Shown one piece after another: positions 24,553 through 27,869 of a stretch of DNA of 39,220 nucleotides. Under the pieces are notes generated by a model. It saw nothing but the letters and a program-made list of their open reading frames with translations. It was not told the origin of the DNA and ran no database searches. The stretch's first letter is position 1. The number at the start of each line of letters is the position of its first letter. Source of the DNA: Actinomycetota bacterium (lineage in GTDB: Bacteria; Actinomycetota; Actinomycetes; S36-B12; UBA10799); NCBI GenBank assembly GCA_963169225.1, contig CAUJDH010000101.1, forward strand, positions 1-39,220, in the 5' to 3' direction. A program made the position numbers and the translations under genes.

Positions 24553-25299
24553 TTGAGTTCGCTATTGCTCCTGACAAACACGCTCTCCGCAAGTGTCGAG
24601 GTGTTACCAGCGCTCGGCCTCTTGCAGCATCAAGTGCGTGTGCTCGCGGCCGATGGCACCCAGTTACTCGACGCACCTGACGCGGATGTCATCTTGGTTG
24701 ATGGTCGCAGTGACCTGTCGAATATTCGCTCTCTTTGCCGCGTCATCCTCGCCACTGGCAACGAATCACCAGTGATTCTCGTAGTCGCTGAGGGTGGGCT
24801 GATCGCCGTTAACTCTGATTGGGGAGTCGACGATGTGATCTTGGCGACCGCCGGACCCGCTGAACTCGACGCCCGTATTCGATTGGCAGTGGGACGTGCA
24901 AACGACGGTGACGATGTCAATCAAGAGGAGATCCGCAATGGTGATCTCGTTATCGATGAAGCTGCCTATTCGGCCAAGATTCGTGGCCGGGCATTAGACC
25001 TGACCTTCAAAGAGTTTGAACTGCTCAAGTACTTGGCCCAGCATCCCGGACGCGTATTCACGCGCACGCAGTTGTTACAAGAAGTGTGGGGATACGACTA
25101 CTTCGGAGGTACCCGCACTGTTGACGTTCACGTGCGGCGTCTGCGTTCCAAGCTGGGCGCCGAGAACGAAGGCTTGATTGGCACGGTAAGGAATGTCGGA
25201 TACCGTTTTGTCGTTGCACCTACCGAACATGTGAACGATAGTGACGGCGCGAGTCTCGACACTCAAGCTGGAACCGAAGTGGGAGCGGATCAAAACTAA
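24553..25299 (+). CDS. glnR: Orphan OmpR-type nitrogen regulator GlnR
   Basis: This 248-residue DNA-binding protein has an atypical receiver (1-~118) and a winged-helix domain (~130-222: [60 protein letters not shown]). The opening MSSLLLLTN, the ADVILVDGR block with Asp50, and [20 protein letters not shown] match Streptomyces GlnR as I remember it, including the conserved Asp50 used for dimerisation rather than phosphorylation. GlnR controls glnA, amtB and other nitrogen genes and cross-talks with PhoP. There is no partner kinase. The TTG at 24553 is well positioned behind GGGAGG. It overlaps the thioredoxin gene by one base. Confidence 0.92.
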
Positions 25300-25769
25300 T
25301 GTCTCAACAAGGGCTCTGGATCGTATGCGCGGTTCTCGTCATTGTCGGATTCGGCGGTGCTTGGCTCAAACGAAATAACGGCAAATTCAAAGAGTCCGAA
25401 GCTACTGAACAAGGCGACGAACTCGTCCTTACCGAGGCTGAACTTGGTCAGCCGCTGGGGTCGTCGCTTACGGTGGTGCAGTTCTCGTCCACGTTCTGTC
25501 AGCCATGCATCTCTACTAAGCGGGTCATCGCTTTTGTGCTGGACAAAGTGACGGTACCCGGTATCGAGAGCGTTGAGATCAATGCTGAGGAGAACCTCGA
25601 TCTCACAAGAGACTTATCGATAATGCGCACGCCGACGGTCTTGTTGGTAAATCCGGACGGCAAGGTTGTGTCGCGAGCCAGTGGGGAGCTTCGTCCGCAA
25701 CAGTTCGTTGGGGCTCTCGGACAGGCATTAGGTTTCGACGGTGCATCCGTTGACGTAAGCATCCGCTGA
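25299..25769 (+). CDS. Membrane-anchored thioredoxin-like protein
   Basis: This 156-residue protein has an N-terminal transmembrane helix (~residues 5-23), with a charged linker and then a thioredoxin fold. The active site is FSSTFCQPCISTKR (Cys67-x-x-Cys70), with the cis-Pro in MRTPTVLLV. The WC-type Trp of classical thioredoxin is replaced by Phe. It is coupled to glnR through TAATG. It probably reduces or exchanges disulfides at the membrane; which face carries the domain depends on topology and is not settled. The gene precedes the sulfur operon, and the two are commonly neighbours in actinomycetes as far as I recall. Confidence 0.88.
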   Translation: MSQQGLWIVCAVLVIVGFGGAWLKRNNGKFKESEATEQGDELVLTEAELGQPLGSSLTVVQFSSTFCQPCISTKRVIAFVLDKVTVPGIESVEINAEENLDLTRDLSIMRTPTVLLVNPDGKVVSRASGELRPQQFVGALGQALGFDGASVDVSIR

Positions 25770-25820
25770 TCTGAAAACTGAACAACGGTATTTGAGTAAC
25801 CGCCCAATAACCACACTTAA

Positions 25821-25833
25821 CTCACTTAGTGAG
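25821..25833. repeat. CTCAC-TTA-GTGAG inverted repeat
   Basis: A perfect 5-bp inverted repeat with a 3-base loop stands in the gap between the thioredoxin gene and the leader-peptide promoter. It lacks a U-tract, so it is a weak terminator candidate, or an operator just upstream of the -35 element at 25850. Confidence 0.35.
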
Positions 25834-25849
25834 AAATGGGCCCCCGGTA

Positions 25850-25878
25850 TCGACAATGGAAAACAAATCCTTTAGTCT
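25850..25878 (+). promoter_or_regulatory. Promoter of the sulfur operon leader
   Basis: TCGACA (25850-25855) and TAGTCT (25873-25878) are separated by 17 bases, a good fit to a primary-sigma promoter. Transcription would start near 25885, about 16 bases before the leader-peptide ATG. Confidence 0.5.
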
Positions 25879-25900
25879 CGTATTTATGTCTACACAGGTC

Positions 25901-25966
25901 ATGCTGACGAAGCGTCGTGCGGTTGATTTCTGCCGCATGTGTACCTGTATGTGTTCCTCCTGCTAG
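25901..25966 (+). CDS. Cysteine-rich leader peptide (cysteine attenuator)
   Basis: This 21-codon reading frame runs from ATG 25901 to TAG 25964. Its product begins MLTKRRAVDFCR and holds five Cys among its last eleven residues (positions 11, 14, 16, 18 and 21), using both TGC and TGT. I recall short Cys leader peptides with an RRxVDxCR-like core ahead of sulfur genes in actinomycetes, and polycysteine uORFs that act as cysteine-responsive attenuators in mycobacteria. Stalling of a ribosome on the Cys codons would signal low Cys-tRNA. The leader lies 119 bases upstream of the DUF4395 gene and downstream of a plausible promoter. It has only a weak AGG before its start, so it may be read with a very short 5' leader. 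Confidence 0.8.
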   Translation: MLTKRRAVDFCRMCTCMCSSC

Positions 25967-26085
25967 AGGTCTCGTCGCGCATTTGCGCTTTCGCACTTCA
26001 GCAGACCCGCAAGGTCTGCCCCTAGCCATGTCACCAGAACTTCAGACTCACTCGTGGAACTTCACGATCCAAGGAACAGGCAAAC
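25967..26085 (+). promoter_or_regulatory. Attenuator-like leader RNA after the Cys peptide
   Basis: A perfect hairpin, GCAGACC-CGCAA-GGTCTGC, lies at 26001-26019. The GGTCT at 25968-25972, just past the peptide stop, could pair instead with the AGACC of that hairpin, giving mutually exclusive structures. TGTTCCT within the Cys codons (25952-25958) is complementary over 7 bases to AGGAACA at 26072-26078. That stretch overlaps the AAGGA Shine-Dalgarno sequence of the DUF4395 gene. A stalled ribosome would cover TGTTCCT and free the Shine-Dalgarno. No U-tract follows the hairpin, so translational rather than transcriptional attenuation is favoured. The pairings are by eye only. Confidence 0.55.
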
Positions 26086-26568
26086 ATGTCAGAATCACAG
26101 TTCAATTCGAACAGCACTCAAACGGGTACTGCCGCGCCCAAAAAAGTTGACCCGCGCGGTCCGCGGTTCGGTGCTGCAGTCACTGCAGTCGTTCTGATTC
26201 TCGCCCTTTTATTTGGTCCGAGTTCGCCAGTCACCCTAGGGTTGTTGATTCTTCAAACCATCGCATTCGCGCTAGGTGGCTTGGTTGGTCTGCAATACCA
26301 GCCGTACGGCTTCATCTACAGCAGGTTGGTGCGTCCACGTTTGCAACCGCCCGCGGAACTTGAAGATGTCAGGCCACCGCAGTTCGCACAGCTTGTTGGC
26401 CTGGTGTTCGCGCTGCTGGCTTTGATCGGGTACCTCGCAGGACTGTCCGTGTTGTTTTATGCAGCTTTAATTTTGGCTCTAGTAGCAGCACTCCTCAACG
26501 CTGTATTCAACTTCTGTCTGGGTTGCGAAATTTATCTGCTTGCAGCTCGGTTGGGTAAGAAGGCTTAG
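26086..26568 (+). CDS. DUF4395 membrane protein
   Basis: This 160-residue inner-membrane protein has about four hydrophobic segments (near residues 24-38, 45-65, 100-122 and 124-145). Family marks include DPRGPRFGAAVTAVV near the N-terminus, the YRLV-like cytosolic patch FIYSRLVRPRLQPP, and NFCLGCEIYLL with a CxxC near the C-terminus. DUF4395 proteins are uncharacterised but are typically found beside thioredoxin and sulfurtransferase genes in actinobacteria. The CxxC and the Cys-controlled leader suggest a role in handling sulfur or thiols across the membrane. AAGGA stands ten bases before the ATG. Confidence 0.88.
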   Translation: MSESQFNSNSTQTGTAAPKKVDPRGPRFGAAVTAVVLILALLFGPSSPVTLGLLILQTIAFALGGLVGLQYQPYGFIYSRLVRPRLQPPAELEDVRPPQFAQLVGLVFALLALIGYLAGLSVLFYAALILALVAALLNAVFNFCLGCEIYLLAARLGKKA

Positions 26569-26644: not shown

Positions 26645-27511
26645 ATGAGTCGAGAGACATCACTCGTCACCGCTGACTGGGTGGAAGAGAATCTGGACAA
26701 CGACAAAGTAGTTCTTGTCGAGGTCGACGAAGACACCGCTGCATACGATCTCAACCACATCCGTGGCGCGGTTCGTATCGACTGGAAGGATGATCTTCAG
26801 GACCCAGTCCGTCGTGACTTCGTCAACAAGGAGCAGTTCGAGGCACTTTTGAGCCAGCGTGGAATCGGCAACGATGACATCGTCGTTCTCTACGGTGGCA
26901 ACAACAACTGGTTCGCTGCTTACGCCTACTGGTACTTCAAGCTGTACGGCCACGGTGACGTGCGTCTGCTTGATGGTGGCCGCAAGAAGTGGGAGCTCGA
27001 TTCTCGTGAGCTCGTTACCGAGGTTCCCGAGCGTGCCGCAACCACTTATGTTGCTCAGGAGCAGGACACCTCGATCCGCGCATTCCGCGACGATGTCGAG
27101 GATGCAATCGGTTCGGAGAACCTGGTCGATGTTCGTTCGCCAGACGAGTTCTCCGGCAAGCTACTTGCTCCGGCTCACTTGCCACAGGAGCAGTCGCAGC
27201 GTCCAGGTCACATTCCAACAGCCGCCAACATTCCGTGGTCCAAGACCGCGAACGATGACGGCACCTTCCTCGCCGATGAGGCGCTTACCGCGCTATACGA
27301 GGCTGAGAATGTTGATCTTGGCAAGGACACCATCGCTTACTGCCGGATCGGTGAGCGCTCGGCTCACACCTGGTTCGTGCTGCACGAGATCCTCGGTGTT
27401 CCGAACGTCAAAAACTACGACGGCTCGTGGACCGAGTGGGGTTCACTTGTTGGCGTTCCTGTCCAACTAGGTTCAGAGGCAGGTTCGCCTGCAGGAGGAG
27501 GCTCACTATGA
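26645..27511 (+). CDS. Thiosulfate sulfurtransferase (tandem rhodanese, SseA/CysA2 type)
   Basis: This cytoplasmic enzyme of 288 residues has two rhodanese domains. The N-terminal one (~1-130) is inactive (VLVEVDEDTAAYDLNHIRGAVRIDW). The C-terminal one carries the active loop YCRIGERSAHT with Cys233 as persulfide carrier; CRIGERS is the loop of mycobacterial CysA2-type sulfurtransferases. It transfers sulfane sulfur from thiosulfate or 3-mercaptopyruvate to acceptors. The ATG at 26645 follows AAGGAAAAG. The frame is open to 26540, but the A-rich upstream part is not family sequence. It is coupled to DUF1416 (ATGA overlap) and lies in the operon controlled by the Cys leader. Confidence 0.94.
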   Translation: MSRETSLVTADWVEENLDNDKVVLVEVDEDTAAYDLNHIRGAVRIDWKDDLQDPVRRDFVNKEQFEALLSQRGIGNDDIVVLYGGNNNWFAAYAYWYFKLYGHGDVRLLDGGRKKWELDSRELVTEVPERAATTYVAQEQDTSIRAFRDDVEDAIGSENLVDVRSPDEFSGKLLAPAHLPQEQSQRPGHIPTAANIPWSKTANDDGTFLADEALTALYEAENVDLGKDTIAYCRIGERSAHTWFVLHEILGVPNVKNYDGSWTEWGSLVGVPVQLGSEAGSPAGGGSL

Positions 27512-27810
27512 GTTGCGCAGCACCAAAGGGTGGTCACTCGATCGAGGGTGTAGATGCCACCAAAGAATCCGTAATCCAAGGCGTCGTGACGCGTGACGGC
27601 TCGCCAGTCGGTGGCGCCTACGTGCGTCTGCTCGACGGCAGTGGTGAGTTCACCGCAGAGGTGCCAACGAACGCGGAAGGTTCCTTCCGCTTCTTCGCGG
27701 CACCAGGCGACTGGACGCTTCGCACTCTTGCTCCGGGCGCAACGCTCGACAGCAAGGTCAGCGCCGCCCAAGGTGGCGTGGCTGAGGTAGCGGTGGAGTT
27801 GCCTGCCTAA
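27508..27810 (+). CDS. DUF1416 family protein
   Basis: This 100-residue beta-rich protein starts MSCAAPKGGHSIEGVD and has a transthyretin/CNA-B-like carboxypeptidase-regulatory fold (VIQGVVTRDGSPVGGAYVRLLDGSGEFTAEV, SFRFFAAPGDWTLRTL). DUF1416 is almost always encoded directly after the sulfurtransferase in actinobacteria. Its function is unknown; the N-terminal SCAAP Cys is a candidate persulfide acceptor from the partner, which is inference. A strong GGAGGAGG precedes the ATG, which overlaps the sulfurtransferase stop. It is the last gene before a strong terminator. Confidence 0.92.
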   Translation: MSCAAPKGGHSIEGVDATKESVIQGVVTRDGSPVGGAYVRLLDGSGEFTAEVPTNAEGSFRFFAAPGDWTLRTLAPGATLDSKVSAAQGGVAEVAVELPA

Positions 27811-27820
27811 GAGATCCAAA

Positions 27821-27869
27821 AACAAAGATGGCGTGTACTCGAAATTTCCGGGTACACGCCATCTTTGTT
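27821..27869. terminator. Strong bidirectional intrinsic terminator
   Basis: A perfect 18-bp inverted repeat (left arm 27821-27838, right arm 27852-27869) is lengthened by three inner pairs, one of them G-U, around a 7-base AT-rich loop. The arms begin AACAAAGATGGC and end GCCATCTTTGTT, giving U-rich ends on both strands. It closes the sulfur operon 10 bases after the DUF1416 stop. Confidence 0.88.

Follow-up and report, generated by a model that had tools for sequence, protein, structure and literature searches.

A Cysteine-Rich Leader Peptide as a Predicted Translational Attenuator of a DUF4395-cysA2-sseC Operon in an Actinomycetota Bacterium

A window of 39,220 nucleotides from an Actinomycetota bacterium (contig CAUJDH010000101.1, assembly GCA_963169225.1) contains a sulfur-transfer operon preceded by a short reading frame rich in cysteine codons (Table 1). 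With a probability of roughly 0.77, we propose that this leader attenuates translation of the operon in response to cysteine, in the manner of the Ms5788A leaders. The homology of the peptide, the makeup of the operon and the potential of the transcript to pair with itself are computational observations. Both the operon and the general mechanism are already known, and this leader is a well-supported further member in another actinobacterial lineage. The switch characterised in Mycobacterium smegmatis would thus extend to a small-genome lineage outside the mycobacteria.

As early as 2005, cysteine leader peptides were predicted for actinobacterial cys operons, their mode of action being left unknown (Seliverstov et al. 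2005, PMC1262725). Ten years later, the leader preceding cysA2/Rv0815c was described along with its occupancy by ribosomes in M. smegmatis, and attenuation by cysteine was put forward for it (Shell et al. 2015, PMC4633059). Canestrari et al. 2020 (doi 10.1111/mmi.14498) then demonstrated attenuation in response to cysteine in M. smegmatis, as far as that work is relayed in other papers (PMC9031893, PMC13236596, PMC9094748). The original prediction for our window had taken the operon to be undescribed. This view has to be given up, since leaders of this family stand before cysA2 or DUF4395-cysA2-sseC operons across Actinobacteria and are covered by the 2015 report and, in its relayed parts, the 2020 study, and Cys leaders of cys operons go back to the 2005 prediction.

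Table 1. Coordinates of the leader, its predicted RNA elements and the operon genes in the window
Feature	Position	Strand	Basis or remark
-35-like element TCGACA, 17 bp 5' of the -10 element	25850..25855	+	sequence
-10 element TAGTCT (TANNNT), predicted transcription start A25886	25873..25878	+	conserved spacing
Cys-rich leader sORF MSTQVMLTKRRAVDFCRMCTCMCSSC, 26 aa	25886..25966	+	Ms5788A-like; NF042933 match, homologues before the same operon
Predicted sensing Cys codons 16, 19, 21, 23, 26 (TGC, TGT, TGT, TGT, TGC)	25931..25963	+	
Cys23 UGU codon at near-invariant +13 position	25952..25954	+	UGU in 74/75 leaders
P1 5' arm, anti-Shine-Dalgarno UGUUCCU	25952..25958	+	MFE, centroid, pair probabilities 0.64-0.96
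P2 5' arm, GCUAG 25962-25966 (spans stop codon) and GG 25968-25969	25962..25969	+	
7-bp hairpin GCAGACC-CGCAA-GGTCTGC	26001..26019	+	nested inside P1/P2; without U-tract
P2 3' arm CCCUAGC	26020..26026	+	predicted fold
DUF4395 Shine-Dalgarno (SD) AAGGAACA	26071..26078	+	26072-26078 (AGGAACA) = P1 3' arm
DUF4395 membrane protein, first operon gene	26086..26568	+	PF14340 E 8e-41
CysA2-type sulfurtransferase, two rhodanese domains	26645..27511	+	PF00581 E 3e-34
SseC-type DUF1416 protein, 4-bp overlap with cysA2 stop	27508..27810	+	PF07210 E 1e-39

Leader peptide and operon

The domain assignments in Table 1 bear out the earlier claim that the leader stands before a DUF4395-sulfurtransferase-DUF1416 operon. 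The CysA2-type protein of the window is up to 82% identical to its counterparts in Streptomyces, and the placement of DUF4395-cysA2-sseC directly downstream of the leader is common to many relatives. Upstream of the leader (24553-25769) lie a GlnR-type regulator and a thioredoxin-like gene in ThiX position; a thioredoxin-like gene is also found 5' of the leader in many relatives. At the other end of the operon, 3' of the DUF1416 gene, a near-perfect inverted repeat (AAAGATGGCGTGTAC...GTACACGCCATCTTT, 27828-27868) looks by eye like an operon terminator.

The Cys codons of the reading frame begin at 25931, 25940, 25946, 25952 and 25961, and a TAG stop follows at 25964-25966. The peptide therefore ends in the predicted cluster of five cysteines within its last 11 residues. 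The predicted length of 21 codons was too short. A start at ATG 25901 was rejected in view of the starts of relatives and the spacing to the -10 element, both of which favour ATG 25886 as the most likely start. Leaders from the same GTDB family start at the position aligned to 25886 (MSVEVVLVKRR, MSRQVELVKRR, MSQQVFLVKRR and MDQQVDLVKRR) and follow the pattern MSxxVxLVKRR, which aligns with the window frame from this position. The gap between TAGTCT and ATG 25886 measures 7 nt; a TANNNT element stands at exactly this distance in 71 of 99 leaders and at 6 or 8 nt in 21 more, which places it at 6-8 nt in about 92. From these starts and the conserved 7-nt spacing it follows that the sORF encodes 26 residues and would be translated from the 5' end of the mRNA. 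The leader transcript is probably leaderless, as in mycobacteria, with a transcription start that is predicted from sequence. The promoter had been called good. It has the TANNNT element at conserved spacing and TCGACA at 25850, and TGACA-like elements also occur upstream of the leaders of relatives; a strict sigma-70 consensus match was looked for at the leader promoter and not found.

The NCBIfam model NF042933 ("Ms5788A family Cys-rich leader peptide") aligns with residues 4-26 of the window peptide (E 7e-10) at 38.4 bits, which lies below the curated cut-off of 45 bits. Orthologous leaders from Streptomyces (46.5 bits) and from f7 relatives, a sister family (45.1 bits), exceed this cut-off. 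With NF042934 ("putative leader peptide"), the window peptide reaches 25.9 bits against a cut-off of 27. Of 166 genomes in the order of the window, 27 have a hit to NF042933 with an E value no higher than 0.001. Our comparison set comprised 99 leaders located 5' of cysA2-sseC or DUF4395-cysA2-sseC; it drew on Streptomyces, Nonomuraea, Micromonospora, Nocardia, Williamsia and others as well as on the window's own order. These leaders share the motif (L)TKRRAVDxCR followed by a later Cys, and their placement before cysA2 or DUF4395-cysA2-sseC operons is conserved across Actinobacteria. The expectation that the cysteine-rich frame would be kept in relatives was thereby confirmed. The window's own genome contains a second Cys leader with a LISRRHVDLGRVSSAMCLCF end (L132:1741-1839, contig 38), which scores over the NF042934 cut-off and is followed by a nitrite/sulfite-reductase-like gene.

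Conservation of a peptide across Actinobacteria could also mean that the peptide itself is the active product, for example a small Cys-rich protein that binds metals or acts in redox chemistry in trans, with any pairing in cis being incidental. This explanation is hardly credible, given that the number of cysteines per leader ranges from 1 to 5, that the leader stands directly upstream of sulfur genes, and that paralogues occur at other loci. The pattern of conservation suggests a different alternative. RR and D never vary, and K, L, T and V hardly do, although the synonymous codons used for them differ; at the first R of the RR pair, the codon entropy is 2.0 bits and the amino-acid entropy 0. 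In addition, 44 of 76 leaders contain only two Cys codons. Both observations would fit a nascent peptide, (L)TKRRAVDxCR, that arrests the ribosome from within the exit tunnel when it reaches the Cys codons, beyond what a shortage of tRNA would do. The codons for RRA..DxCR form a predicted hairpin, however, and part of the peptide conservation may thus reside at the RNA level. We consider such arrest very unlikely.

Predicted fold of the leader RNA

The original prediction pointed out that TGTTCCT (25952-25958) within the Cys codons is complementary to AGGAACA over the Shine-Dalgarno sequence of DUF4395. This helix (P1) is present in the MFE structure of 25886-26110 as well as in the centroid, mostly with a pair probability of 0.96; inclusion of longer downstream sequence lowers this value to 0.61-0.81 in places. 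The native pairing between sORF tail and SD (0.96; mean of the null, 0.14) is matched by 1.8% of 500 synonymous recodings. The caution that a 7-base match alone could arise by chance was justified, since the bare 7-mer match to the SD appears in about 5% of synonymous recodings. The total folding energy of the leader is ordinary (z -0.6), and the claim for pairing rests on where the pairs fall.

The 7-bp hairpin at 26001-26019 exists as described, with a probability of about 0.8, but the analysis does not support its role as a switch element. As a terminator it was ruled out for want of a U-tract, and no terminator-like site was detected in 25700-26150. The alternative partner suggested for one hairpin arm, GGTCT at 25968-25972, is present in the sequence; its pairing with AGACC has a probability of 0.00 and was discarded. 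The single hit to Rfam covariance models in 25700-26200, isrD on the opposite strand, lay under the threshold. A further hairpin is predicted inside the sORF at about 25914-25939, where the RRA codons pair with the xCRM codons, and relatives have an equivalent.

Pairing in related genomes

In 24 non-redundant DUF4395-led leaders from the order, the mean SD-tail pairing is 0.56. The three null models gave lower means: 0.18 after synonymous recoding (p 3e-5), 0.21 when tails were dinucleotide-shuffled (p 2e-4) and 0.25 when they were swapped (p 3e-4); relatedness among the 24 leaders is ignored in these p-values. When averaged by genus, eight of nine genera lie above the synonymous null (p 0.004). 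In the folds for genus g13 of a sister family, the SD and start region pair with sequence at the 3' end of the sORF; directly after the stop codon, a second helix starts inside this one. This P1/P2 topology is like that of the window while the sequences are unlike. RNAalifold identified changes on both sides of pairs at columns 77/159, 79/127, 81/125 and 82/124 of the g13 alignment; covariation summed over the alignment comes to about zero, and pairs are broken in some rows. These compensatory changes and the synonymous-codon tests are comparative evidence that the last codons of the leader are selected to pair with the next Shine-Dalgarno sequence.

The exact heptamer pairing TGTTCCT/AGGAACA is not conserved in relatives, and no covariation is demonstrable for it because the spacers of the close family align poorly. 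In the nearest relatives, of genus g7, tail-SD pairing amounts to 0.21 (L099) and 0.06 (L100), and the SD is mainly paired to the spacer. In genus g12, tail-SD pairing does not rise above that of shuffled tails. Streptomyces-type cysA2-led leaders have little tail-SD pairing; it falls short of significance for the SD by itself, and counting the start codon as well brings it to a marginal level (p 0.05). Hence, the earlier assumption that the pairings are kept in relatives holds for the topology, which recurs with compensatory changes, and fails for the heptamer, for L099 and L100, and for g12. According to these fold models, the tail-SD architecture is common in the order of the window, with exceptions.

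The exceptions bear on the question as to whether the match in the window is a coincidence, and a genuine leader regulates through another structure such as sequestration of the SD by the spacer. In L099 and L100, the spacer sequence CTTCAG pairs with the Shine-Dalgarno sequence CTGAAG(G), and CTTCAG is also present in the spacer of the window (26040-26046), where it is unpaired with the SD. The frequency of the 7-mer among recodings points in the same direction. On the other hand, the pairing dominates the ensemble in the window and exceeds that of the recoded controls, and the order-wide trends back tail pairing, which makes coincidence unlikely.

Ribosome occlusion and proposed mechanism

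We modelled the effect of a ribosome on the leader by occluding the bases that it would cover, with approximate ribosome edges. The SD core is predicted to be unpaired with a probability of 0.04 when no ribosome is present. An A site at Cys16 gives 0.18 and one at Cys19 gives 0.02, and the value becomes 0.39 at Cys21, 0.55 at Cys23 and 0.59 at Cys26. In this model, only a ribosome at one of these last three codons relieves the pairing. In 17 of 20 relatives from the order, the SD opened when the modelled ribosome stood on the last Cys codon instead of on KRR. In silico, sequestration of the SD and its predicted release by a stalled ribosome fit a ribosome-mediated translational attenuator.

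We infer the following sequence of events. Transcription would begin at or near A25886, and the 26-codon frame would be translated from the 5' end of the transcript. With ample Cys-tRNA, ribosomes should pass the Cys codons and depart. On the cleared leader, the last Cys and Ser codons (25952-25958) could then pair with the DUF4395 Shine-Dalgarno sequence (26072-26078), the helix at the stop codon (25962-25969/26020-26026) would close inside P1, and translation of DUF4395-cysA2-sseC would stay low. When cysteine is short, a ribosome would wait at Cys21, Cys23 or Cys26 and cover the anti-Shine-Dalgarno, which may leave the SD free for translation of the sulfur-transfer operon. Stalling and derepression of this kind are essentially the mechanism of the original prediction, and the opening of the SD by a modelled ribosome at Cys21-Cys26 suggests that it was right. 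For M. smegmatis, the abstract of Canestrari et al. 2020 reportedly puts forward that stalling of ribosomes in the Cys tract keeps RBS-sequestering structures from forming.

The same stalled ribosome could also act on transcription, by blocking the loading of Rho in the C-rich spacer, so that clearance of the leader would lead to Rho termination before DUF4395. The spacer is indeed richer in C than in G (40 C vs 26 G of 119), Rho has been proposed for mycobacterial Cys leaders without terminators (PMC1262725), and Rho termination can come after translation attenuation (PMC12121999). Yet, Rho leaves unexplained why the sORF tail pairs with the SD above the synonymous and swap nulls and why the P1/P2 topology exists, and the M. 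smegmatis homologues have been described as a case of translation attenuation (PMC13236596). We judge control by Rho to be unlikely and favour translational attenuation.

Relation to known leaders

The closest known systems are the Ms5788A leaders (cysA2/Rv0815c, Msmeg_5788). They share with the window a homologous peptide, terminal Cys codons, a leaderless-type start (here predicted), a cysA2 sulfurtransferase as target and cysteine-dependent attenuation, which is established in M. smegmatis by the relayed parts of the 2020 study and predicted here. In contrast to these leaders, the Cys codons of the window are interspersed (CRMCTCMCSSC) instead of forming a run, a DUF4395 gene stands between leader and cysA2, the host belongs to another actinobacterial lineage, and the peptide scores under the NF042933 cut-off (38.4 vs 45 bits). 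The Cys leaders of Mycobacterium, P. acnes and B. longum (PMC1262725) likewise have Cys codons near the stop, lack a terminator and precede sulfur genes. For them, the mode was left unknown, Rho was suggested, and no SD pairing was reported for the cys cases.

A run of leader codons that pairs with a downstream SD as a base stem is known from the LEU element of actinobacterial leuA (PMC1262725). This element differs in responding to leucine, in containing a pseudoknot and in its target, and mutations of its Leu codons reportedly have no effect on regulation (PMC1262725). The uORFC-8-2 motif before cysS in Rhodobacterales, which are alpha-proteobacteria, is also a Cys-codon leader with regulatory codons in a stem, but it attenuates transcription by an intrinsic terminator and is dominated by UGC (PMC8632094).

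A fixed UGU codon

If codon positions are counted from the leading R of RR, 74 of 75 non-redundant leaders use TGT for the Cys at +13, and TGC is used for the Cys at +6 in 61 of 66. The proteins of the operons use TGC 227 times and TGT 52 times, at a median locus GC of 0.71. In the papers searched, this UGU rule is not mentioned. The use of UGU at +13 is not a matter of codon context, since the codon after Cys is usually CGC at both sites. The third base of the +13 codon is often predicted to be paired, with partners so scattered that one conserved base pair was ruled out as the cause. The +6 Cys sits in the predicted hairpin with the RRA codons, which may explain UGC at this site and part of the peptide conservation.

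In the window, the UGU of Cys23 provides the first three bases of P1. Tentatively, we suggest that the wobble-read UGU at +13 might serve as a dedicated sensing codon, at which the ribosome would cover the anti-Shine-Dalgarno; slow wobble decoding could then be the cause of the rule. The fixed UGU would hint at how so few Cys codons could sense cysteine. In a phylum-wide set of leaders, mostly of non-cysA2 type with a few of Ms5788A type, the +13 Cys is TGT in 21 of 22.
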